DNA from: Pythium myriotylum
Lineage: Eukaryota; Oomycota; Peronosporomycetes; Pythiales; Pythiaceae
Assembly (NCBI GenBank): GCA_023091665.1
Contig: JALJCQ010000012.1
Coordinates: forward strand, 1,550,001 to 1,614,000
DNA length: 64,000 nucleotides
Reading direction: 5' to 3'
Each line of letters begins with the position of its first letter. Position 1 is the stretch's first letter. Below, one piece after another: positions 44,569-58,665 of this stretch. Under the pieces are notes generated by a model that searched no databases, was not told the origin of the DNA, and saw nothing but the letters and a program-made list of their open reading frames with translations. The translations under genes were made by a program, and so were the position numbers.

Positions 44569-45829
44569 AACTAGAACCAATACGAGAGATGGAGGGGGCT
44601 GGCAGTGCTAATTTTGTTTGGTGGAAGGTATCATGCCCCCTGGGCCTTCGTGTTGAAAGCGTCGGTTCAAATGCGACGTGTGCAGCCAGGGGCACGAACG
44701 CCCCACATCAATCGCCGAGCCACCACATCTAAAGTCGATTTCCATATTCATAGAACCACGCTGCATTGTTTGAAGCACATCTATCACTGCCAGCTGTCAT
44801 TCACTAAGTTGCTTGTTTCCGTAGGACCAAATCGATCTCATTCGCCTTCTTTCGTCTCGACAACTTCTTCCACCAGCAGACTTGCCAACAGGATCGGGGC
44901 AGAGACTTTGGTTTGCACCTGACCTGACATCAGAGATGATGAAACCGCACAGTCTTAGCTCCGCTCCATGTGGCTTGCCGCGGTGAACTCTAACTCAAGC
45001 ACACACACTGTGATCGCGTATCAGCAAGGGCGCCATCCCCACGCAAGTACGTCGACCAGAACCTCGGACCACGACACGGGCGACGCTCCTGTACCCTGTC
45101 AACCACTAGAACCAGAGCAGAGCCCTCGATTTGCATCTGGCCTGACGTCAGAGATGGCTAATCAACAGAGACTGTGCTTTGAAGCGAGGTGTGGGCGCAA
45201 AGGCGAGGGATATATCAGATCGAATCTCTCATCGACACCAAGACGCAACCGGTACGCAAGTCGGCCGAAACCGCTACCACTCAGTACCCACGCCTGAATC
45301 ACCGCGCAGGTACTTGGCTGGTGCGTGGCCAAGCAAGCGTCTTAGAAGAAGTGTAAGAGACCCTGCCTTACAGCCCTTTGGTCAGCACCTACGAAAATAT
45401 AGCTTCACACATTTCCAAACACCTTAATCCAACACGGCATTCTCGTATTCAATAGTTGTATTGTTGTCACGACTCTAGCGGCAGCTCTCCTCATTGTATC
45501 GCCTCACCCAACCCACCGGTACGCCATAGTGATACTCCACTCACCATCGTGCCACTACTGGCATCGGATCGGCAACGCGAAGGCTATCTACCAAGCCGCT
45601 TGTGCCGCAGCCGTGTCACCCGCACACCTGAGAAAACATACCCATTCAAACCGATAGGTCGCATATCCGCATATCCCGATAACCCTTGCATACTAATACA
45701 AGTACCGTACCGCCTCGCACAAACCTGTAGATAGATCGTCCTCCAAATTACATGTATATCCGTATTAAAGGGTGGAGGGCTTTACGTACTCCTTCGGAGC
45801 ACTGCCAGTATAATATATTGGTTCTAGTT
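44569..45829. mobile_element. 1.26-kb non-coding element with two-part inverted ends (copy 1)
   Basis: Left end AACTAGAACCAATA (44569-44582) is the exact inverse of the right end TATTGGTTCTAGTT (45816-45829). Inside, CTGGCAGTGCT (44599-44609) pairs with AGCACTGCCAG (45798-45808). No protein-coding domain was found, so it looks non-autonomous. A second diverged copy lies at 54803-55772; shared blocks include CGCCGAGCCACCACATC, CTGTCATTCACTAAGT and CAAGTACCGTACCGCCTCGC. Within the element the block CCTGACNTCAGAGATG occurs twice (about 44,922 and 45,142). No flanking target duplication was identified. The superfamily is not recognised. Confidence 0.65.
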
Positions 45830-48944: not shown

Positions 48945-49348
48945 TGCTGCACTCCTGTTCGTTTTTCGTCTTTTCCGAGCGGGACCATGTTCGAATTCTT
49001 GTATCGGATAGACCGGACTTGTTGACGCCGGCCGACTTCCCTGAGGTGAAGAGAAAGATCGCTATCGATTCACTTGAGCTTGACTTGGCAAATTGGGGGA
49101 TTTCTTACTTATCGTTTTTCCTACTCTGTGTTTTCCTGAAAAGTCGCCTGGGGGGGGGGGGGGGGGGGGGGGGGGCCTCCTTGACATCTTTTGTGAAGGG
49201 TCGCGATGTCACTATCAACCCTTCTCATAGTGATCAACTGGTCACTACCGATGATAACGTCACTATTCAAAGGAGGTCCCTATCCTAGCGGTTTCTGTCC
49301 TAAAATATGTACTGCAGTAGTATGCATGAGAACGAGAGATTGGGGAGG
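48945..49348. other. Sequence between the Helitron remnant and the Gypsy element
   Basis: 404 bp; contains a run of 26 G (49150-49175). The last about 20 bases (ACGAGAGATTGGGGAGG) match the left part of the inverted-end element family, so copy 2 of that element begins here. Confidence 0.5.
49150..49175 (+). repeat. Poly-G tract, 26 bases
   Basis: Uninterrupted run of 26 G. A similar 25-G run lies at 57797-57821. Such runs are rare in coding DNA, can form quadruplexes and often mark assembly or polymerase slippage. Confidence 0.95.
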
Positions 49349-49683
49349 TGTAACGAGGCTGACCTCGTTACGTCACGTACACTGTGGAGCAGTGTAGGAA
49401 GCGCGCAACACAGAGACTTGTGTTGAATCAGGCAAATGGGAAACTGAATTTATGGATTAGGAAACCAAGAAAAACCTACTCTTTGTATATAAAACCTCGC
49501 AGATCCGCCCTCGGATTCTGCCATCCACTCAATCACAAGACCCTAGCGTGATTGGTGGGAAATCGGGATAATATCGTGGGATATTATCCAATCAGGAGAC
49601 ATCGCAACCAGATGGGTTCACGACGTTCCTATCGGACACCATTGACATGGGTCCGTACCATGTAACGGGCACACCCCGTTACA
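49349..49683 (-). repeat. Gypsy 3' LTR
   Basis: 335 bp, begins TGTAACG and ends CGTTACA on the plus strand. Each end is a hairpin: GTAACGAGG-CTGA-CCTCGTTAC at one end, GTAACGGG-CACAC-CCCGTTAC at the other. A TATATAAA box reads on the plus strand near 49487, that is, towards the antisense frame inside the element. Its minus-strand complement (TTTATATA) could serve the sense direction. Confidence 0.93.
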
Positions 49684-49697
49684 TCACCCTCCCCTCA
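49684..49697 (-). other. Polypurine tract of the Gypsy element
   Basis: On the minus strand the bases next to the 3' LTR are purine-rich (GAGGGGAGGGTGA). This is the usual plus-strand primer for reverse transcription and confirms the minus orientation. Confidence 0.75.
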
Positions 49698-49801
49698 AGA
49701 CGAAAGTCGCATTGAACGACTTGCGACAGGGAGCACTTGTTGGTCAGTTGGTCCAACGGCGAGTCGCGAGCCGCAGCGTTGATCGTCACCGATCAACGCC
49801 T

Positions 49802-52800
49802 TCAATGTCGCGGTCCATTCGGAGAATGGACCCGAGCAAGAAGACCATCAGCGCCGCCGACTACCGCGCTGCAATGGCAGTGCGCGCCATGAGCGCGGCT
49901 CAGGCGAGCGAGGATGCCGCTGCGCGCACCAGTGCAGCGGTTGAAGACAACTCGACGGCCGGCGAGGGCGCCACCTCGACCGAGCCACTTGAAGACACCG
50001 CGAATAACGACGGTGGTCATCCACCGTCGTCCAAGACGACTGAAGACCCGTCGGCCGACGCCGAGATGCGCTGCGACGTCGAGGCCGACGGCGACGAAGA
50101 GACGAAGGCGCCGGCGAGCGCTGCGACGACCAACGTCGCAGCGCGCAGAGCCGCGCCTGCAGAGCGATCGCCGACGCTGTCGGAGCTCGTCGATTACGAC
50201 GAGAGCGACGGCGAAGAAGAAGCCAAGTCGGAGGACCGTGCCGCGCGCGGTCCTTACGAAGAATCGCCGTTGTTCAGCTGCTCGCCGTCCGAGCGGTCGC
50301 TGAATAGCTATTCGGCGCCGTATAGTGAGGCGGACGAGCAGATGAAGGAGGATGGGGAGGTCGCGGAAGATCACTGGAGCATCGTGGTACTCGTACATGA
50401 TCCGCAGGCGCAGATCATGATCTCCTGGCACGACGACACGCGAAGTATCGTCGGGAACGGCGCTGTAGAACAGCAGGCCGTTCCGCTGCGTGTATCGATG
50501 AACCTTCGATCGATACGAAGCCGGCAAGCCCTTCAACGCTTGCGGCGATGGCTCTGCAAGGTAGGCCATCAAGCGCACGACCTCAGGGTCGTGTGCATTC
50601 GCAGCACGAACGTCGTCGAGCAAGGTCGATGACGGAACACTGGAGCTGAACGCACTCGCTGCGTTCAGGGAATCTTGGGCGACGACCGTCGGCTCAAAGT
50701 CTGGCCGACGGGACAGAGCATCCGCGACGACGTTGAGTCGTCCGGGCTTGTACTCGACGGAGAAATTATACTCCGCGAAGAAAGACAGCCACCTCGCCAT
50801 GCGCTGCGAGAGGTGTGGGCTGTTCACAGCCGTGCGCAACGACGCATGGTCTGTGAAGACCTTGAACGGTCTATCTCCAAGCAGATAGACGCGGAACTTG
50901 GCCAGTGCGTACTTCATGGCAAGGAGCTCCTTGTCATGCACTGGATAATTACGCTCAGCTGGTTGCAGCTGACGCGACTGGTAACAGACGACGCGCTCAG
51001 CGCCGTCGTCGTCGAACTGCATCAGCGCTGCGCCGATGGCAAAGTCGCTTGCGTCACAAACCACGTGGAATGGTTTGTCCTGGTCCGCGATCGCCAGAAC
51101 TGGCGATTCAATCAAGCTTTGCTTGATGCCTTCGAAGGAACGCTGAGTGTCAGCGTTCCAAGTCCACTTGGTGTCTTTCTTGAGTAATCGAGAAAGAGGA
51201 ACAGTCATCTCGGCGTAGTTGCGCGAGTACTTGTGCAAGTATGCCGCGAGGCCAAGGAACTTGCGCAGTCCCTTGACGTCGAGTGGCGTCGGCCACTCCT
51301 TGATCGCTCTGATCTTCTCGGGATCAGGGCGCACGCCGTTCTTGCCGACTATACACCCAAGAACAGGTATCTCGCTGGCCGCGAAGATACACTTCTTCAG
51401 GTTCGCGTACAGCTTATGCTCTCGCATAAGTGTGAGAACCTCTCTGATGTGGAGTCTGTGAACCTCCAGATCAGTCTTCCCGTCCATAGCTCGGCTATGA
51501 ACGAAGACATCGTCGAAGTAGCTTGGTGCGAAGGCTCGCACTGGGCGCAATAGATGCGAGACGCATCTATTGAATGTGGCTGGTGCGTTGCTGAGGCCCT
51601 GAGGCATCACCAACCACTCCCAGAGCATTCCGCTTGGGGTGCTGACGGCCGTGAACGGAATATCCCGTTCACGCATCAAGATCTGATAGAATCCGTCCAT
51701 CAGATCCATCGACGAGAAGATGGTGCTCTTCGCCATCCCGTCGATGATGACGTCCTTCCTCGGTATCGGCGTCTGCGCCGGTATCGTCGCCGCGTTCAAC
51801 TTGTTGAACGCGTGTACAATCCGCCACCCTCCTGTTGCCTTACGCACACAGAAGGTCGGAGAGCTGTGAGGGGAGGTAGACTCCCTCACATGGCCAGCAG
51901 CGAGACGTTCTGCGAAGAACTTGTCGATCGCTTCGACCTGTTCACGAGGCAGTGGCCACTGCTTCATGACACAGTACTTCGAACCTGGCTTCAGGTCGAT
52001 CTCGTGCCGAATGCCTTTGTCCTTCGGCAATTCGCACGGCACGGATTCGGGGAACACATCCGCGAATTCGACCAAATCCTCGTAGAGAGGATTTCCCTTG
52101 AGCGACTCCCAGGATTGAGCCGAGTACCGCTCAATCCGAGTCTTCTCATCGAGGACGCTCTCGTCCATCGATGAGCTGCTGAGAAGCCGTTCCTTCTCAG
52201 CAAACACCACTGCCGACCGGATATCGGTCACACATTCGTCCTCCGCGACGAGAATACAGATCTGCGCGATCTTTCCTTGGCGCAGATCTCGCAAGAACCG
52301 CTTGGGTTCGAGCGTAGGCAGTGCGGTGATCTCCGAAGTTGACTTCGGAGGCGCAACGACCTCGAGTGTGGATGCACCCACTCTCGTGCCGTCATTGACT
52401 AAGACGTTGATCGTCTCAGTGACTTCCTGCGGCCTTATGCGCGCAGATTCCTCGAGCTGCAGTTGCGCAACTGCAGCGAGATCTCCATCGCTCGACGTTC
52501 TAGTCGGGGCGGAGAGTCGACGTTGCCTCCTTGCGGCAGACGTCGAGACCTTCCTCTCATAGTGCTGCCCCTGTGGCAAGCACTGTCTTTTTGGCTCGTG
52601 CGACTTATTCGCACGAGGATCTTCCTCACTTGACTCGTGCGACTCACTCGCACGAGAAGTCTTCGGCGCTGTCTGCGACCCTACGCAGACCCCGGCAGCT
52701 GGCTCGACGACAAAGGTCGACTCTTTGTCGTAGTCTTGGGCAGTCGTACTAACGACCGAGTGACTGATGAGGCCATCACACTCATCTTCCACACGTCCAC

Positions 52801-53335
52801 GTGCATCTGGACGCTCCAGAACCGACATCAGGTGGCCACCTGATGACCGAGCGGCGGGCATCGTAACGGATCGATGCCGCCAGCTGATCCATGGCTCGTG
52901 TGAACGAAGCCATGGCAGGCCTAGGATGACGTCGAACTTGTCATCTAGGTCGAGTACGACAAAGTCGTCGTCGTACTCATTGCCTTCAAGCGTGTAGTGG
53001 AGGCCCACTACGCGTTTCATAACCTTCACCGTTGCGCCAGTTGCAAGGCGCACCGTCATCCTCGTCGGAGGAATGTCTCGCTCGACAACGTCGAGCCTTA
53101 AAGACTCGATAGACTGTCGTCGAACGAAGTTATTCGACGCCCCACAGTCTACGAGGGCGCGAAGCGAAGACGAAGCTCCTTCGACTTCGAGCTCCAAGGT
53201 GATGAGGGCCTCATCATCACCAGGTGTGGCGAAGCACAGAGACTGTGCTTTGGGAGCAGCCTTCGTCAAGAGTCCCACAAACTCTCTTGACGTGACTGGA
53301 TCAGTAGGGCGCTCCGCCCCTACTGACCCTGACCG
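49802..53335 (-). CDS. pol: Gypsy pol: aspartic protease, reverse transcriptase, RNase H
   Basis: Reached from gag by a -1 shift (first pol-frame codon at 53335); there is no ATG of its own near the start, and an in-frame GTG at 53278 is not needed. The protease has LVDCGASNNFV and VILGLPWLRS. Reverse transcriptase runs from HSSPTFCVRKATGGWRIVHA through DLMDGFYQI and MPQGLSNAPATF to the catalytic box SYFDDVFVHS, with the downstream GLAAYLHKYSRNYAE. RNase H has HVVCDASDFAIGAAL, NYPVHDKELLAMKYAL and FTDHASL. A linker of about 100 residues follows, to RLRIMYEYHDAP, where integrase would begin but the sequence changes. The last roughly 195 residues (below about 50,385) are an Arg-rich read-through of the antisense region. 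Residues needed for protease, RT and RNase H all appear intact. Confidence 0.9.
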   Translation of the reverse strand, partial: RSGSVGAERPTDPVTSREFVGLLTKAAPKAQSLCFATPGDDEALITLELEVEGASSSLRALVDCGASNNFVRRQSIESLRLDVVERDIPPTRMTVRLATGATVKVMKRVVGLHYTLEGNEYDDDFVVLDLDDKFDVILGLPWLRSHEPWISWRHRSVTMPAARSSGGHLMSVLERPDARGRVEDECDGLISHSVVSTTAQDYDKESTFVVEPAAGVCVGSQTAPKTSRASESHESSEEDPRANKSHEPKRQCLPQGQHYERKVSTSAARRQRRLSAPTRTSSDGDLAAVAQLQLEESARIRPQEVTETINVLVNDGTRVGASTLEVVAPPKSTSEITALPTLEPKRFLRDLRQGKIAQICILVAEDECVTDIRSAVVFAEKERLLSSSSMDESVLDEKTRIERYSAQSWESLKGNPLYEDLVEFADVFPESVPCELPKDKGIRHEIDLKPGSKYCVMKQWPLPREQVEAIDKFFAERLAAGHVRESTSPHSSPTFCVRKATGGWRIVHAFNKLNAATIPAQTPIPRKDVIIDGMAKSTIFSSMDLMDGFYQILMRERDIPFTAVSTPSGMLWEWLVMPQGLSNAPATFNRCVSHLLRPVRAFAPSYFDDVFVHSRAMDGKTDLEVHRLHIREVLTLMREHKLYANLKKCIFAASEIPVLGCIVGKNGVRPDPEKIRAIKEWPTPLDVKGLRKFLGLAAYLHKYSRNYAEMTVPLSRLLKKDTKWTWNADTQRSFEGIKQSLIESPVLAIADQDKPFHVVCDASDFAIGAALMQFDDDGAERVVCYQSRQLQPAERNYPVHDKELLAMKYALAKFRVYLLGDRPFKVFTDHASLRTAVNSPHLSQRMARWLSFFAEYNFSVEYKPGRLNVVADALSRRPDFEPTVVAQDSLNAASAFSSSVPSSTLLDDVRAANAHDPEVVRLMAYLAEPSPQALKGLPASYRSKVHRYTQRNGLLFYSAVPDDTSRVVVPGDHDLRLRIMYEYHDAPVIFRDLPILLHLLVRLTIRRRIAIQRPLGRRAAEQRRFFVRTARGTVLRLGFFFAVALVVIDELRQRRRSLCRRGSARCDVGRRSARRRLRLFVAVGLDVAAHLGVGRRVFSRLGRRWMTTVVIRGVFKWLGRGGALAGRRVVFNRCTGARSGILARLSRAHGAHCHCSAVVGGADGLLARVHSPNGPRH
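49805..50632 (+). CDS. Antisense open reading frame in the Gypsy element, acidic protein
   Basis: Up to 275 residues on the plus strand, from ATG 49805 (or 49826, MDPSKKTISAADYRAAM). It occupies the place where integrase and the end of pol should be. The first about 190 residues are Ala/Glu/Ser/Asp-rich and read like a real disordered protein (LSELVDYDESDGEEEAK, SPLFSCSPSERSL). The overlapping minus-strand translation of the same bases is Arg/Leu-rich and meaningless. From about 50,385 the frame merely overlaps genuine pol, so the functional part probably ends there. It lies about 320 bp downstream of a plus-oriented TATA box in the LTR. It may be a captured gag-like or host segment. No known domain was recognised; expression is unproven. 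Confidence 0.45.
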   Translation: MSRSIRRMDPSKKTISAADYRAAMAVRAMSAAQASEDAAARTSAAVEDNSTAGEGATSTEPLEDTANNDGGHPPSSKTTEDPSADAEMRCDVEADGDEETKAPASAATTNVAARRAAPAERSPTLSELVDYDESDGEEEAKSEDRAARGPYEESPLFSCSPSERSLNSYSAPYSEADEQMKEDGEVAEDHWSIVVLVHDPQAQIMISWHDDTRSIVGNGAVEQQAVPLRVSMNLRSIRSRQALQRLRRWLCKVGHQAHDLRVVCIRSTNVVEQGR

Positions 53336-53341
53336 TTTTTT
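53301..53341 (-). other. Programmed -1 ribosomal frameshift signal between gag and pol
   Basis: On the minus strand: slippery heptamer A-AAA-AAC (53341-53335) in the exact gag phase, an 8-base spacer GGTCAGGG (53334-53327), then a hairpin with a 9-bp perfect stem TCAGTAGGG / CCCTACTGA (53326-53301). The gag stop (53322-53320) lies inside the stem. The -1 frame is open from the slippery site through all of pol. This is the classical X-XXY-YYZ plus stem-loop arrangement. Confidence 0.88.
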
Positions 53342-54333
53342 TGTTGATCTTCACGCTGCTGTTTCTTCGCAGCGTGTTGATCCGACCACTGGACCTTCTT
53401 GTCCACGTGGCGACCGCGTCCATTGCCGCGAGGCACTGGGCGCGCAGCATTACACTCATAAGCGTAATGCCCGGTCTTCTGGCATCGATTGCATTTCTGC
53501 AATCGTTTGTCCACGCGAGGGCGGTGCTCGCTCTCGGCGTAGGAAAGATCCATGGCCTCTGGATCACTTGCGTCTTGTCGTCTGGACGGACGATAAGCAG
53601 CGGAATAGACATAAGCCTGTCGCAGGCTGAAGTCCTCTTGGCGAGCAGCCGAGATCGCGTCCTCGAGTTTATCAAACTCGAGATGGAACATCTGGGTCTT
53701 GATCGGCCCATCCTCGAGCCCCTTGATAAACGCAGCAACCTGCGTTTGATCATCGATGGGATTCTCCACGATGCAACTCACGAGGTATCGTGCGTGCTGG
53801 GCGTAAGCGTGAATATCACGCTTACCTTGCCTGAGATCCAGGAACTCAGCGCGAGCCCTGAACTCGGCTCGAGGTGGCTCAAACGCTTGTTTGATCTTGA
53901 CCTTGAACTCTTCATACGATCCGAAGCAATACGGATCGTGCAGCTTGAGACCGAGCGCCCACACCTTGGCACGACCTGCCAAGTTGGATATGGCGTAGGT
54001 CACTCGCATCGCATCGTCATCGATGCGACGGGCTTCAATGGAATCGTCGAGTTCGACAAACCAACGCAACAGGCTGTCACCGTCAGCCTTGTACTTGGAG
54101 ATCTCGATCTTCAACGGCTCGACACGTCGAGGCCGCTCTGCCGCCGCAGCAGCAGACTGCTGCTGCCTCAACAACGCTGCTTGTTGAGCGCTCTGCTCGC
54201 GCAGAGCTGCAAGACTCCCTCTCGCCTCGTTCAGCTCATGCTGGATGAACTGGGCGATACTCGCGTGCTGTTCATCACGCGAGAGCGAGAGGAGCATGGC
54301 GCCGACGGCGGCTTCGCCCACCGTCGCGGCCAT
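53320..54333 (-). CDS. gag: Gypsy gag polyprotein
   Basis: 337 residues, ATG at 54333 (MAATVGEAAVG). A helical N terminus with a short coiled coil (ELNEARGSLAALREQSAQQ) precedes a retrotransposon-gag capsid region (DGDSLLRWFVELDD, FGSYEEFKVKIKQAF, FLDLRQGKRDIHAYAQ). Near the end is one CCHC zinc knuckle, CNRCQKTGHYAYEC, followed by a basic tail. It packages element RNA in cytoplasmic particles. The stop codon is preceded by the slippery A-AAA-AAC heptamer, so a fraction of ribosomes should make Gag-Pol. Confidence 0.92.
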   Translation of the reverse strand: MAATVGEAAVGAMLLSLSRDEQHASIAQFIQHELNEARGSLAALREQSAQQAALLRQQQSAAAAAERPRRVEPLKIEISKYKADGDSLLRWFVELDDSIEARRIDDDAMRVTYAISNLAGRAKVWALGLKLHDPYCFGSYEEFKVKIKQAFEPPRAEFRARAEFLDLRQGKRDIHAYAQHARYLVSCIVENPIDDQTQVAAFIKGLEDGPIKTQMFHLEFDKLEDAISAARQEDFSLRQAYVYSAAYRPSRRQDASDPEAMDLSYAESEHRPRVDKRLQKCNRCQKTGHYAYECNAARPVPRGNGRGRHVDKKVQWSDQHAAKKQQREDQQKNGQGQ

Positions 54334-54447
54334 GCGCTAAACAGCCTGCCACTCGAGCTCACTCAAGTGGAGGAAGTTCTCACGCGAGGCGTGGCGACCC
54401 TGCGCGCCAGGGGTTTCCGGCGCAGGGGGATTCATAGTCGCTGGGCG

Positions 54448-54465
54448 GACTACGAAGTGCTACCA
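54448..54465 (-). other. Primer-binding site of the Gypsy element
   Basis: Two bases inside the 5' LTR the minus strand reads TGGTAGCACTTCGTAGTC, beginning with the TGG that pairs with a tRNA 3' CCA. The matching tRNA (3' end UGCUACCA) was not identified. Confidence 0.55.
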
Positions 54466-54467
54466 GG

Positions 54468-54802
54468 TGTAACGAGGCTGACCTCGTTACGTCACGTACA
54501 CTGTGGAGCAGTGTAGGAAGCGCGCAACACAGAGACTTGTGTTGAATCAGGCAAATGGGAAACTGAATTTATGGATTAGGAAACCAAGAAAAACCTACTC
54601 TTTGTATATAAAACCTCGCAGATCCGCCCTCGGATTCTGCCATCCACTCAATCACAAGACCCTAGCGTGATTGGTGGGAAATCGGGATAATATCGTGGGA
54701 TATTATCCAATCAGGAGACATCGCAACCAGATGGGTTCACGACGTTCCTATCGGACACCATTGACATGGGTCCGTACCATGTAACGGGCACACCCCGTTA
54801 CA
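54468..54802 (-). repeat. Gypsy 5' LTR
   Basis: 335 bp; no difference from the copy at 49349-49683 was seen by eye, including both terminal hairpins. It should carry the promoter for the gag-pol transcript running towards lower coordinates. Confidence 0.93.
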
Positions 54803-55772
54803 GGAGGGGGCTGGCAGTGCCAATTGTGTTCGGTAGTAGACCAAAAGTATGGTACCAGCGACGCGAGAATTAGCGTTAGATAGACGTGAAGGGCTTGTGA
54901 CTGATGTCCCACATCAGTCGCCGAGCCACCACATCAACAGTCAACTTCCACAACAGTATGAACCATGCTGCATTGTTTTTACCACACATCTATCACTATC
55001 CGCTGTCATTCACTAAGTGGCTCGTTTCCCTTCGCGTTCCTACCCACAAGCTAGGACGAAGTCGATCTCATTCGCCTTCTTTCGTCACGACGCCTTCTCC
55101 AAGCGCAGACATGCCAACATGATCGGAGCAGAGACTTTTGTTTGCACCTGATCTGACATCAGAGATGGTGAAACAGCACAGTCTCAGCTCCGCTCCATGT
55201 AGTTTGCCAAGGCATCCAAGGCATCGTCTCTGTTGGCCCTACCACCTCCACAACAACTAAGTGGTGATTTCCATGGCATCTCCTAAGTCGGACGGCGAAG
55301 CACTATCGCCGTCGGCACTTACTTTTGTTTTTCTTCTTTCTATTTTGTGTTGATTCCTAAATTTTTACAATTATCAGAACCTTTTCATAACTTTTGCGGC
55401 GGAGCCCTTGAATTTTTTTTCAGAATTTGAAATAGTCCTGCCATCTTTTCATTATTTTCCGAGCAGAGGTAGTAGTTGTCTTGTTGTCATGCATGACTCA
55501 AGTGGCAGCTCTCCTCATTGTATCCAACCTACCGGTACACCATAGTGATACTCCACTCCCCATCGTGCCACTACTGGCATCGAATCGGCAACGCACACCT
55601 GAGAAAACATACCCATTCAAAATGATCGGTCGCATATCCCGATAACCCTTGCATACTAATACAAGTACCGTACCGCCTCGCACAAACCTGTAGATAGATC
55701 GTCCTCCAAATTACATGTAAATCCGAAATAAAGGGTGGAGGGGCTTAACGTACTCCTTCGGAGCACTGCCAG
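54803..55772. mobile_element. Inverted-end element, copy 2, split by the Gypsy insertion
   Basis: Diverged copy of 44569-45829, shortened by internal deletions. The inner inverted repeat is kept: CTGGCAGTGC (54811-54820) and AGCACTGCCAG (55762-55772). The left margin (ACGAGAGATTGG) lies at about 49330-49343, beyond the Gypsy element. Long matches to copy 1 include TTCGCCTTCTTTCGTC and the block ending CGTACTCCTTCGGAGCACTG. The outer AACTAGAACCAATA ends are not evident here. No coding region. Confidence 0.65.
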
Positions 55773-55978: not shown

Positions 55979-56704
55979 TTGTCACCACTCGGCCCCGGGA
56001 AATCGCCAGCCACTACACGTCACGACGGCGTGCGTGGCTACCGTGAGGCGATTGGTCTACTGTTGTGGCTAGCCAACATGACCAGGCCTGACATTGTATT
56101 CGCAGTTAGTGTGGCGGCGCGACACCGCCAAGCACCGACACACTACCACTGGCAGATTTTGAAGCGTACCATTCGTTACGAAGGGCACGCGTGACCTTGG
56201 CGTCGTGCACTACAAGGAAGTCAAGCCTCTCGACGTCAAGGATCTCGAGGTGACCATTTGGTCGGCTGCTGACTGGGCCGGCGACACACTCGACAGAAAT
56301 TCGCCCAGTGGCTCGGCGCTCACAGTTAATGGGCGTCTTGTGACTTGGTCGTCACGCAAGCAGCCCGTGGTCGCGCGCTCGACCATGGAAGCTGAGCTCA
56401 TTGCTGGCACCCAAGCCTCCTCTGAGTGTGGTTGGATTCGCCAGTTCTATTCAAGGTTAATTTGGTGCCGAGTCTAAAGATCGACAACAAGAGCGCGATC
56501 CAGAGCATTAAAAACAAGATCGTCTCGAACGGGTCGAAGCATATCTCGATTCGGTTTCACTTCATCCGTGACGAGCACGCAAATGGTCGGGTCGAGCTCA
56601 ATTTGTGTCCGTCTGCCGACCAGCTCGTGGACATTTTCACCAAGCCACTCGCGCGTGTTGCCCTCACGCGTTTGCGCTTGGAGTTAGGCCTTGTGCAACG
56701 GTAA
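55979..56704 (+). pseudogene. Ty1/Copia pol 3' fragment (end of RT and RNase H)
   Basis: Copia signatures in broken frames: YREAIGLLLWLANMTRPDIV (end of reverse transcriptase), then after a frame change SAADWAGDTLDRNSPSGSAL and WSSRKQPVVARSTMEAELIA (RNase H). After a further change come IDNKSAIQSIKNKIVSNG, RFHFIRDEH and ADQLVDIFTKPL, the usual end of Copia pol. The stop at 56702-56704 is followed by a polypurine tract and LTR. Gag, protease, integrase and most of RT are missing, so it is a dead 3' fragment. Confidence 0.85.
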
Positions 56705-57663: not shown

Positions 57664-58665
57664 TCAAAAAAAAAATGAAAAGTATTCACCACGACCAATA
57701 AAAAAACGGCAAACGAATGATGACTCTAGACAGAAGCCACATCGTCGGACTCCGCCGGATCCTGAATCACTACGTAGGTCTGCGGTGTCCGTGATCGGGG
57801 GGGGGGGGGGGGGGGGGGGGGTCTCCAAGTCGTGCACACGGTCGCGAAGATGATCGTTTTGCTCCATCAACTTGTCGACGTTTTGCTCCATTCGCTCTAG
57901 CTTCTTTGCAAGTGCCTTTCGTTTAGTGCGTTCATGATCTCGCTCATGTGTTGCTGATTGCATCTGCAGATGCATGTATCGCTCCGAATACGACGCCATG
58001 CCCTGGTGCTCTTGCCCTGCAAGATGATGCTGAATTGACGCCGCGAGACTATCTGCGCCATGCTGCTTATGTTTCACAGAACCTGAACCTGTCTGTGCCC
58101 TCGAGTCTGCGCGCCGTTGAGGACCTTGAGGCGCTAGTCGGGGCTGTCCTTGTCGTGCTGGTTGAGGCTGAGCTTGTGGTGCTCGTTGGGGCTGGGCAGG
58201 CGCCCGCGTGTCCGCCTGAGCTGGTCATGTAGGAACTTGGAGAGGCTGGGTTGTGGTAGTGAGATCAATATGGGCAGCAACAACTCCATTTTCATCTTCT
58301 CTGGCGCGCGATTCTTCGAGCGGGAACTCATCGTCGCTTCCACCTCTGTCGCTGAGTTATTCCTCATCGAAGTCGCTATCGGTCTCAATGCCCAAATGTG
58401 CTGTGAAAGTTGGGGGTGGATCACGGAACGGAACGACATTAGCTTCATCTTCGTCTTCACGCTCGTAATCGAGAGGTCCACACGCGATTTTCTCGTTGAT
58501 TGCTGCTTGGATGTCCAACGCCTCACTCACAGCACAAGGACGCAATGGATCACCGTTTGGCTTTTGCTGAGGCGTCAACGCGCGAAACTTGGTCTGAATA
58601 GACTTGACGTCACGGGTTGGCTTTGCGTGGATTGAGTGGTACAACTGCAAGACACATTCTCCCAA
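57664..58665 (-). pseudogene. SANT/DUF6818-like coiled-coil protein remnant
   Basis: A single minus-strand frame with two internal stops (58357-58359 and 58225-58227). The first part reads KPTRDVKSIQTKFRAL, QKPNGDPLRP and DIQAAINEKI, the pattern (VKSIQxKF..L...KPxGDP..P) of a SANT-like domain common in oomycete transposon-linked genes. A Gln/Ala-rich stretch follows, then a coiled coil (KRKALAKKLERMEQNVDKL, MEQNDHLRDRVHDLE) and a poly-Pro run created by the 25-base G tract. A frame change just upstream separates the DWENV start. Probably once a DNA-binding protein; now not translatable as one chain. Confidence 0.6.
57797..57821 (+). repeat. Poly-G tract, 25 bases
   Basis: Uninterrupted 25-G run inside the SANT-like remnant (poly-Pro on the minus strand). 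Compare the 26-G run at 49150-49175. Confidence 0.95.

Follow-up and report, generated by a model that had tools for sequence, protein, structure and literature searches.

A private deletion in an oomycete Gypsy element and the remnant of an antisense reading frame likely maintained by selection in fuller copies

The window (the whole stretch of DNA analysed, 64,000 nucleotides, corresponding to contig C12:1550001-1614000 of a 58.7-Mb assembly) contains a Ty3/Gypsy element on the minus strand (49349-54802) whose pol stops where integrase should begin and which has a reading frame open on the opposite strand just beyond that point. The genome gave 135 matches to the elicitin domain, elicitins being an oomycete family, against none in 14 control genomes. 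Two questions arise: how the element came to lack its integrase, and whether the antisense frame behaves as a gene. The sequence-only reading of this locus had proposed that integrase was replaced by the antisense segment in a non-autonomous family moving with integrase supplied in trans. The comparison with other copies in the same genome leads to a different answer, which we hold with considerable confidence: the window copy is a broken member of a chromodomain Gypsy family (F1), it carries a private deletion, and its antisense frame is the remnant of a frame of about 591 codons that is likely under selection.

Structure of the element in the window

The features of the element are the following (window positions, strand, description):

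49344-49348, no strand: left target-site duplication GGAGG, same letters as 54803-54807
49349-49683, minus: 3' LTR, 335 bp, TGTAAC...GTTACA, 100% the same as 54468-54802
49486-49493, plus: TATATAAA, antisense to the element, putative promoter motif
49684-49699, minus: polypurine tract, CTTGAGGGGAGGGTGA on the element strand, assigned by position and composition
49805-50372, plus: antisense frame, the kept 5' third (189 codons) of the family frame
50371-50372, no strand: deletion junction with TC microhomology, about 2,449 bp of the fuller copy L023 absent here
50373-50632, plus: broken antisense frame running on into antisense pol, stop at 50630-50632, outside the family frame
50373-53350, minus: pol, integrase absent
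about 50768-51160, minus: pol RNase H, domain match
about 51350-51847, minus: pol reverse transcriptase, domain match
about 52850-53191, minus: pol protease, domain match
53320-54333, minus: gag, retrotransposon capsid domain and CCHC-type knuckle, the knuckle below the Pfam cut-off
53335-53341, minus: A AAA AAC heptamer, in phase with the codons of gag; predicted site of a -1 frameshift from gag into pol
54455-54465, minus: primer-binding site, 11 nt equal to the 3' end of a tRNA-Met of the same genome
54468-54802, minus: 5' LTR, 335 bp
54803-54807, no strand: right target-site duplication GGAGG

LTRs, target duplication, primer-binding site and polypurine tract are all those of a Ty3/Gypsy element, and the domain order agrees: the window copy has everything except integrase, and in L023 RNase H is followed by integrase. 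A chromodomain (PF00385) scored above cut-off at the C-terminus of pol in one copy of each of three families (L023 of F1, L069 of F2, L066 of F3). The LTRs are identical over their 335 bp and GGAGG is present on both flanks, as the earlier reading had said; its view that the element is young also stands (identical LTRs, few private changes).

The primer-binding-site match takes in the CCA that tRNAs carry at their 3' end. By pattern search, a cluster of 69 near-identical tRNA-Met genes (CAT anticodon), mostly spaced by about 0.9-2 kb, was located at G000:C9:1961711-2035220; ARAGORN called tRNA-Met in the three copies of this cluster that were checked, and the 3' end of the clustered genes matches the primer-binding site of the element. 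Direct repeats of 71 and 117 nt with 94-96% identity, located at 45508-45784 and 55524-55747 and separated by about 10 kb, lie on either side of the Gypsy element, and 56163-56477 resembles a Copia RNase H by eye; the Gypsy element seems to be nested inside an older element. Two runs of G (26 at 49150-49175 and 25 at 57797-57821) are possible sequencing weak spots. Opposite gag, a plus-strand frame of 402 codons is open (53308-54516).

The missing integrase

Similarity to pol had been described as ending after YEYHDAP, and it does so at 50371-50372, where L023 goes on into the integrase zinc-binding domain. Compared to L023, the window copy lacks 2,449 bp with TC at both ends (2-bp microhomology); the missing stretch of L023 encodes most of H2C2, rve, SH3 and the chromodomain (rve scoring 0.1 bit below its Pfam cut-off). 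The comparison with a fuller copy, which the sequence-only reading had recommended, located the deleted integrase and traced the antisense segment to the family's own 3' region. Integrase was not replaced by this segment, which is the normal 3' region of the family.

Among the copies scored, the junction proved private to the window copy. Using the tail as query (49685-50450), none of the 39 other scored tails passed query base 689 (50373), 36 ending at query bases 687-689 and 3 earlier; 40 of 93 candidates were scored, the window copy included, and the counts are therefore a lower bound. From the pol side (query 50250-50520, 40 of 87 candidates scored), all 39 other scored places started at query base 122 or 127, that is, at least 50371. 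Of 39 fetched loci, 32 contained both sides of the junction, at a distance of 1.5-3.5 kb from each other (in most cases 2.2-2.5 kb), and no pol match was found within the stretch fetched in the other 7. The earlier reading had named, as an outcome that would tell against it, a junction unique to this copy and lacking assembly support; the genome search, which returned no further copy with the junction, supplies the first half of this. The window copy has 6 private substitutions along 688 bp of tail sequence and 2 along 1,023 bp of pol sequence. With the junction in no other scored copy and so few private changes, the deletion looks recent and private.

The window copy would most likely have originated from reverse transcriptase skipping 2.4 kb on a full-length RNA template, and the deleted copy would then have been inserted by integrase from a full-length family member. 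Supply of integrase in trans is possible, and the sequence it would leave is the same as that expected from a deletion after insertion. Such a deletion, by end joining at the 2-bp microhomology after an ordinary full-length insertion and with no need of transposition in trans, is nearly as possible as the skip, and we place it only a little short of an even call: the microhomology and the copy-private junction fit end joining as well as a template switch, and the objection that a young element (identical LTRs, few private changes) leaves little time for it is a weak one. This alternative bears only on the origin of the deletion and not on the antisense frame, and the rest of the explanation is unaffected. 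An assembly error in a collapsed repeat is very unlikely; the family is high-copy and the 26-base G run lies close by (49150-49175), but LTRs and target duplication are intact and the microhomology at the junction is natural. Hardest to credit is a non-autonomous, integrase-less family multiplying with integrase in trans, to which the integrase-type insertion (identical LTRs, perfect target duplication) and the integrase-bearing relatives in the genome would be congenial, but of which several insertions with the same deletion were looked for among the scored copies and none found (0/39 from the tail and 0/39 from pol), and for which a window copy privately different at only 8 of 1,711 bp compared leaves no room as a long separate lineage.

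The antisense frame in the window copy and in fuller copies

On the plus strand, the open frame extends from 49646 to 50632 and contains an ATG at 49805, and TATATAAA stands at 49486 on the strand of this frame, 319 bp ahead of the ATG, both as previously read. Fuller copies of the family have a frame of about 591 codons (L023:664-2436), which starts just inside the 3' LTR and ends within the 3' end of pol, running opposite the pol linker, the chromodomain and the last SH3 residues (positions derived from the domain matches of L023). The end of pol was located at 1781 in L023 and 1828 in L025, and at the same residue in L038 and L034. The window copy retained 189 antisense codons (49805-50372), which cover only the low-complexity first third of the frame and are fused to antisense pol as far as the stop at 50632. 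The suggestion of an extra antisense protein consequently stands in one part and falls in another: the antisense reading frame behaves like a gene, but about two thirds of it were lost from the window copy with the deletion, which makes this copy the wrong place to seek the product.

The frame was not riddled with stops elsewhere, an outcome that had been named as adverse: among 15 matches across the whole frame, 9 were stop-free (the query copy, L023, being one of these) and the other 6 had one stop each. When the non-pol part of a fuller copy was put through 1000 dinucleotide shuffles, an open frame of at least 388 codons appeared twice. The length of the frame alone is only moderately telling; the codon-position test among copies is stronger.

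Selection on the antisense frame

The test rests on the premise that changes after insertion should be neutral, and that variants common to several copies come mostly from active ancestors. Near-identical rows were left out of the 26-row tests (L021 and L035 in segment A; L021 and L034 in B; L021, L035 and L026 in C). Within the non-pol part, singletons were spread as 74/72/74 over antisense codon positions 1/2/3, and shared variants, which are not all independent events, as 17/26/52 (p 2.9e-5). Third-position bias in shared variants together with even singletons is as expected for a gene constrained before insertion, and the pol controls gave the same pattern (shared variants 21/12/55 and 13/6/46). 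Fewer of the shared variants than of the singletons were nonsynonymous in the antisense frame (odds ratio 2.73, p 3.3e-5); the mirror frame, whose third positions are those of the antisense frame, gave a weaker shadow of this (odds ratio 1.77, p 0.013), and none of the other four frames had a synonymous excess of shared variants. A sense-strand ORF in the tail, considered as a candidate, was rejected: shared variants were mostly nonsynonymous in that frame (- 0), 86 N versus 13 S.

Where the frame overlaps pol, antisense third positions are pol second positions. The 26 rows gave a weak signal by position (shared variants 9/14/19, p 0.17), with odds ratios of 1.95 in the antisense frame (p 0.046) and 1.25 in the pol frame (p 0.34). 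With 38 rows, including diverged copies (L021 and L035 left out), shared variants were 11/16/31 by antisense codon position (p 0.0037), the 31 comparing with 16 at pol third positions (p 0.04). The linker part of the overlap accounted for 9/6/25 and the chromodomain part for 2/7/5, the latter favouring neither frame. The concentration of linker variants at antisense third positions indicates that the linker is shaped by the antisense frame and not by pol. Taken from these patterns of variation, the antisense frame of the fuller copies is likely maintained by selection.

Sister families

The integrase search returned further groups, whose best-matching part is about 61-64% identical, and four loci from three of these groups were sampled: F2 (L064, L065), F3 (L066) and the single locus L067. 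Long antisense ORFs occupy the same place in two of these three groups, F2 and F3. Those of F2 have 618-660 open codons and were stop-free in 8 copies (L069 among these); those of F3 have 531-559 in nine copies and 526 in a tenth, with no stop in the 10, four of which are identical tandem units on C22. The third group, represented by one locus (L067), had no antisense frame longer than 173 codons, and the feature is thus not present in every related family.

The antisense ORFs of F2 and F3 could each be compared with a relative: F4, a diverged F2 relative on C1 (51% identical over 174 codons), and L068 for F3. The antisense-frame dN/dS, over stretches almost wholly outside pol and free of stops in this frame, was 0.43 for F2/F4 and 0.39 for F3/L068; other frames gave 1.03-1.47 and the mirrors 0.57 and 0.45, figures obtained from codon alignments built in the antisense frame, which favour that frame somewhat. 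All five other frames contain stops, the two mirrors holding 13 and 15. The F3 coiled coil alone gave 0.60 on six differences. Four weak matches to the F3 antisense protein (27-28% identity, E 3e-4 to 6e-4, with stops) were recorded at G000:C18:956908, C8:1201944, C17:2546431 and C15:2666375; those on C18, C8 and C17 lie beside and opposite integrase matches of other elements, and decayed antisense frames are a possible explanation.

Alternatively, GC-rich sequence and the codon constraint acting on the opposite strand could leave the antisense frame open as a by-product from which no protein is made. The GC content is about 62%, so long antisense frames are not rare in this element; open mirror frames are frequent (in L023 the sense strand has one of 388 codons, and 402 codons are open opposite gag), and the lack of a long antisense frame in L067 also accords with a by-product. 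However, the frame lies mostly beyond pol, where there is no sense gene to constrain it; the constraint on the shared variants is that of the antisense frame and is echoed less strongly in the mirror; the linker variants fall at antisense third positions, which are pol second positions; and the sister comparisons gave a dN/dS of about 0.4 in the antisense frame, the nearest being the mirror (0.45-0.57), which contains stops. We consider a by-product improbable.

The predicted protein and its expression

The reading kept here, an antisense frame likely under selection, raises the matter of its product. The F1, F2 and F3 proteins are built alike: each starts with a low-complexity part, which is acidic in F1 and F3 and only slightly so in F2, and each has, in its C-terminal third, a coiled-coil-like part followed by basic residues. 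The F1 and F2 proteins can be aligned across 150 columns that surround W-N-x-F and C-x2-C motifs (HHalign E 0.0049, with a probability of only 7.3%), and their profile score of 30.4 was reached by none of 150 local shuffles (maximum 27.0). Remote homology of F3 to either found no support, HHalign detecting no similarity to F1 or F2 (E 0.42 and 0.22). In collections of uncertain oomycete coverage, the F1 protein had no Pfam family at E up to 1, no PDB match, and no relatives in the viral and prokaryotic contigs searched; for its residues 240-420, none of 415 candidates in a large protein collection reached E up to 0.001. For F2 and F3, every Pfam match fell below the curated cut-offs, and most lay in the coiled-coil parts.

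We infer from these sequences that the antisense frame may encode an accessory protein made from antisense RNA. It would consist of an acidic first part (clearest in F1), a middle domain bearing a C...C-x2-C cluster and, at the C-terminus, a coiled coil with a basic stretch next to it. The antisense protein of HTLV-type retroviruses has an acidic part plus a coiled-coil or zipper part. By analogy with plant antisense ORFs and some retroviral antisense proteins, the accessory protein would most likely regulate the element from within the nucleus.

In intact copies the antisense frame would be transcribed from the 3' LTR or just inside it. TATATAAA was present in 31 of 36 F1 LTRs longer than 300 bp and arose in 13 of 2000 mononucleotide shuffles of the LTR; the TATATA overlapping it also reads on the sense strand. 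An LTR promoter for the antisense frame is retained as a putative one. The motif was not found in the fetched stretches of L064, L065, L066 and L067, which held only a TATATT, in L066; a promoter common to the families accordingly found no support, TATATAAA being without counterpart in the sister-group stretches fetched.

Comparison with known systems

Antisense ORFs between pol and the 3' LTR are already known in plants and Botrytis (PMC7264820, PMC8365987). Those of plant Gypsy elements, termed aORF-3R, include Grande gene23, RIRE2, Retand and PvRetro13; as these sources present them, nuclear and regulatory roles have been proposed and retroviral antisense genes pointed to (PMC7264820, PMC11963269). 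The F1 frame resembles aORF-3R, which according to their descriptions sit between pol and the 3' LTR, occur in most copies and show conservation similar to that of the element's own proteins (PMC7264820, PMC11963269): it is antisense to gag-pol in that same interval, and it is conserved in most copies within F1, though not in the sister locus L067. Unlike the plant frames as described, it goes on into pol, opposite linker and chromodomain, and its host is an oomycete. The oomycete elements also carry a chromodomain, whereas Retand belongs to a non-chromovirus lineage according to its description (PMC11963269). The TRP28/transposase 28 domain of Retand-type aORFs was not among the matches: F1 had no Pfam match at E<=1, and none of the sub-cut-off matches of F2 and F3 was TRP28.

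For the Boty element of Botrytis, PMC7264820 and PMC8365987 cite Zhao et al. 2011 on the antisense gene brtn; there too, a Gypsy element in a filamentous microbe is described with an extra gene on the antisense strand, a likeness of description alone. HTLV-type retroviruses, named in the plant papers (PMC7264820, PMC11963269), have their antisense gene toward the 3' LTR, where F1 has its antisense frame, a likeness of layout alone. Oomycetes are also the hosts of the Chronos elements, which are Gypsy elements found in Peronosporales and Pythiales; their pol ends in a chromodomain, as in F1, and the capture of that chromodomain is described as independent (PMC5348765); the words 'antisense' and 'opposite strand' are absent from the main text of that paper. 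In Chronos, the Gypsy RNase H is followed by a second RNase H of plant type (PMC5348765), whereas the window copy and L023 matched only the Gypsy type. Membership of Chronos was rejected: there is no second (plant/archaeal-type) RNase H, only RT_RNaseH models matched, and in the L023 fragment RNase H ends at residue 153 and H2C2 starts at 269.

No oomycete case of an antisense ORF was recognised in the openly licensed PubMed Central literature, judged by titles and the starts of abstracts. What appears new is that, in several oomycete families, such an ORF overlaps the end of pol that encodes the chromodomain and bears a signal of selection. The plant LTR-retrotransposon antisense ORFs have long been listed with their function obscure; here a selection signal was measured, in several families of one genome from a different eukaryote branch, and for a frame that overlaps pol at its chromodomain end. 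The system lends itself to testing: some copies are young, intact frames exist, and there are natural deletion mutants without most of the antisense frame, the window copy being one of them.

A wider reading, offered tentatively as one joint claim that we think somewhat less probable than not in its entirety, would be that an antisense accessory gene, which begins at the 3' LTR and reaches into pol at its chromodomain end, is old in a group of oomycete chromodomain Gypsy elements and was lost in some branches; that its protein (fast-evolving low-complexity start, C-x2-C middle, C-terminal coiled coil and basic stretch) is made from 3' LTR antisense RNA, controls the element in the nucleus and is an independently evolved counterpart of retroviral antisense proteins; and that the gene dictates the linker sequence over pol.

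Arrangement of copies in the genome

Two pairs of element copies lie in opposite orientation with equal protein-match scores (G000:C12:3143771 and 3158351; G000:C1:3289015 and 3312777) and are likely inverted segmental duplications. At G000:C22:272575-294786, four F3 antisense ORFs 100% identical to the query recur at a spacing of 6,915 bp, and represent either a tandem element array or an assembly effect.
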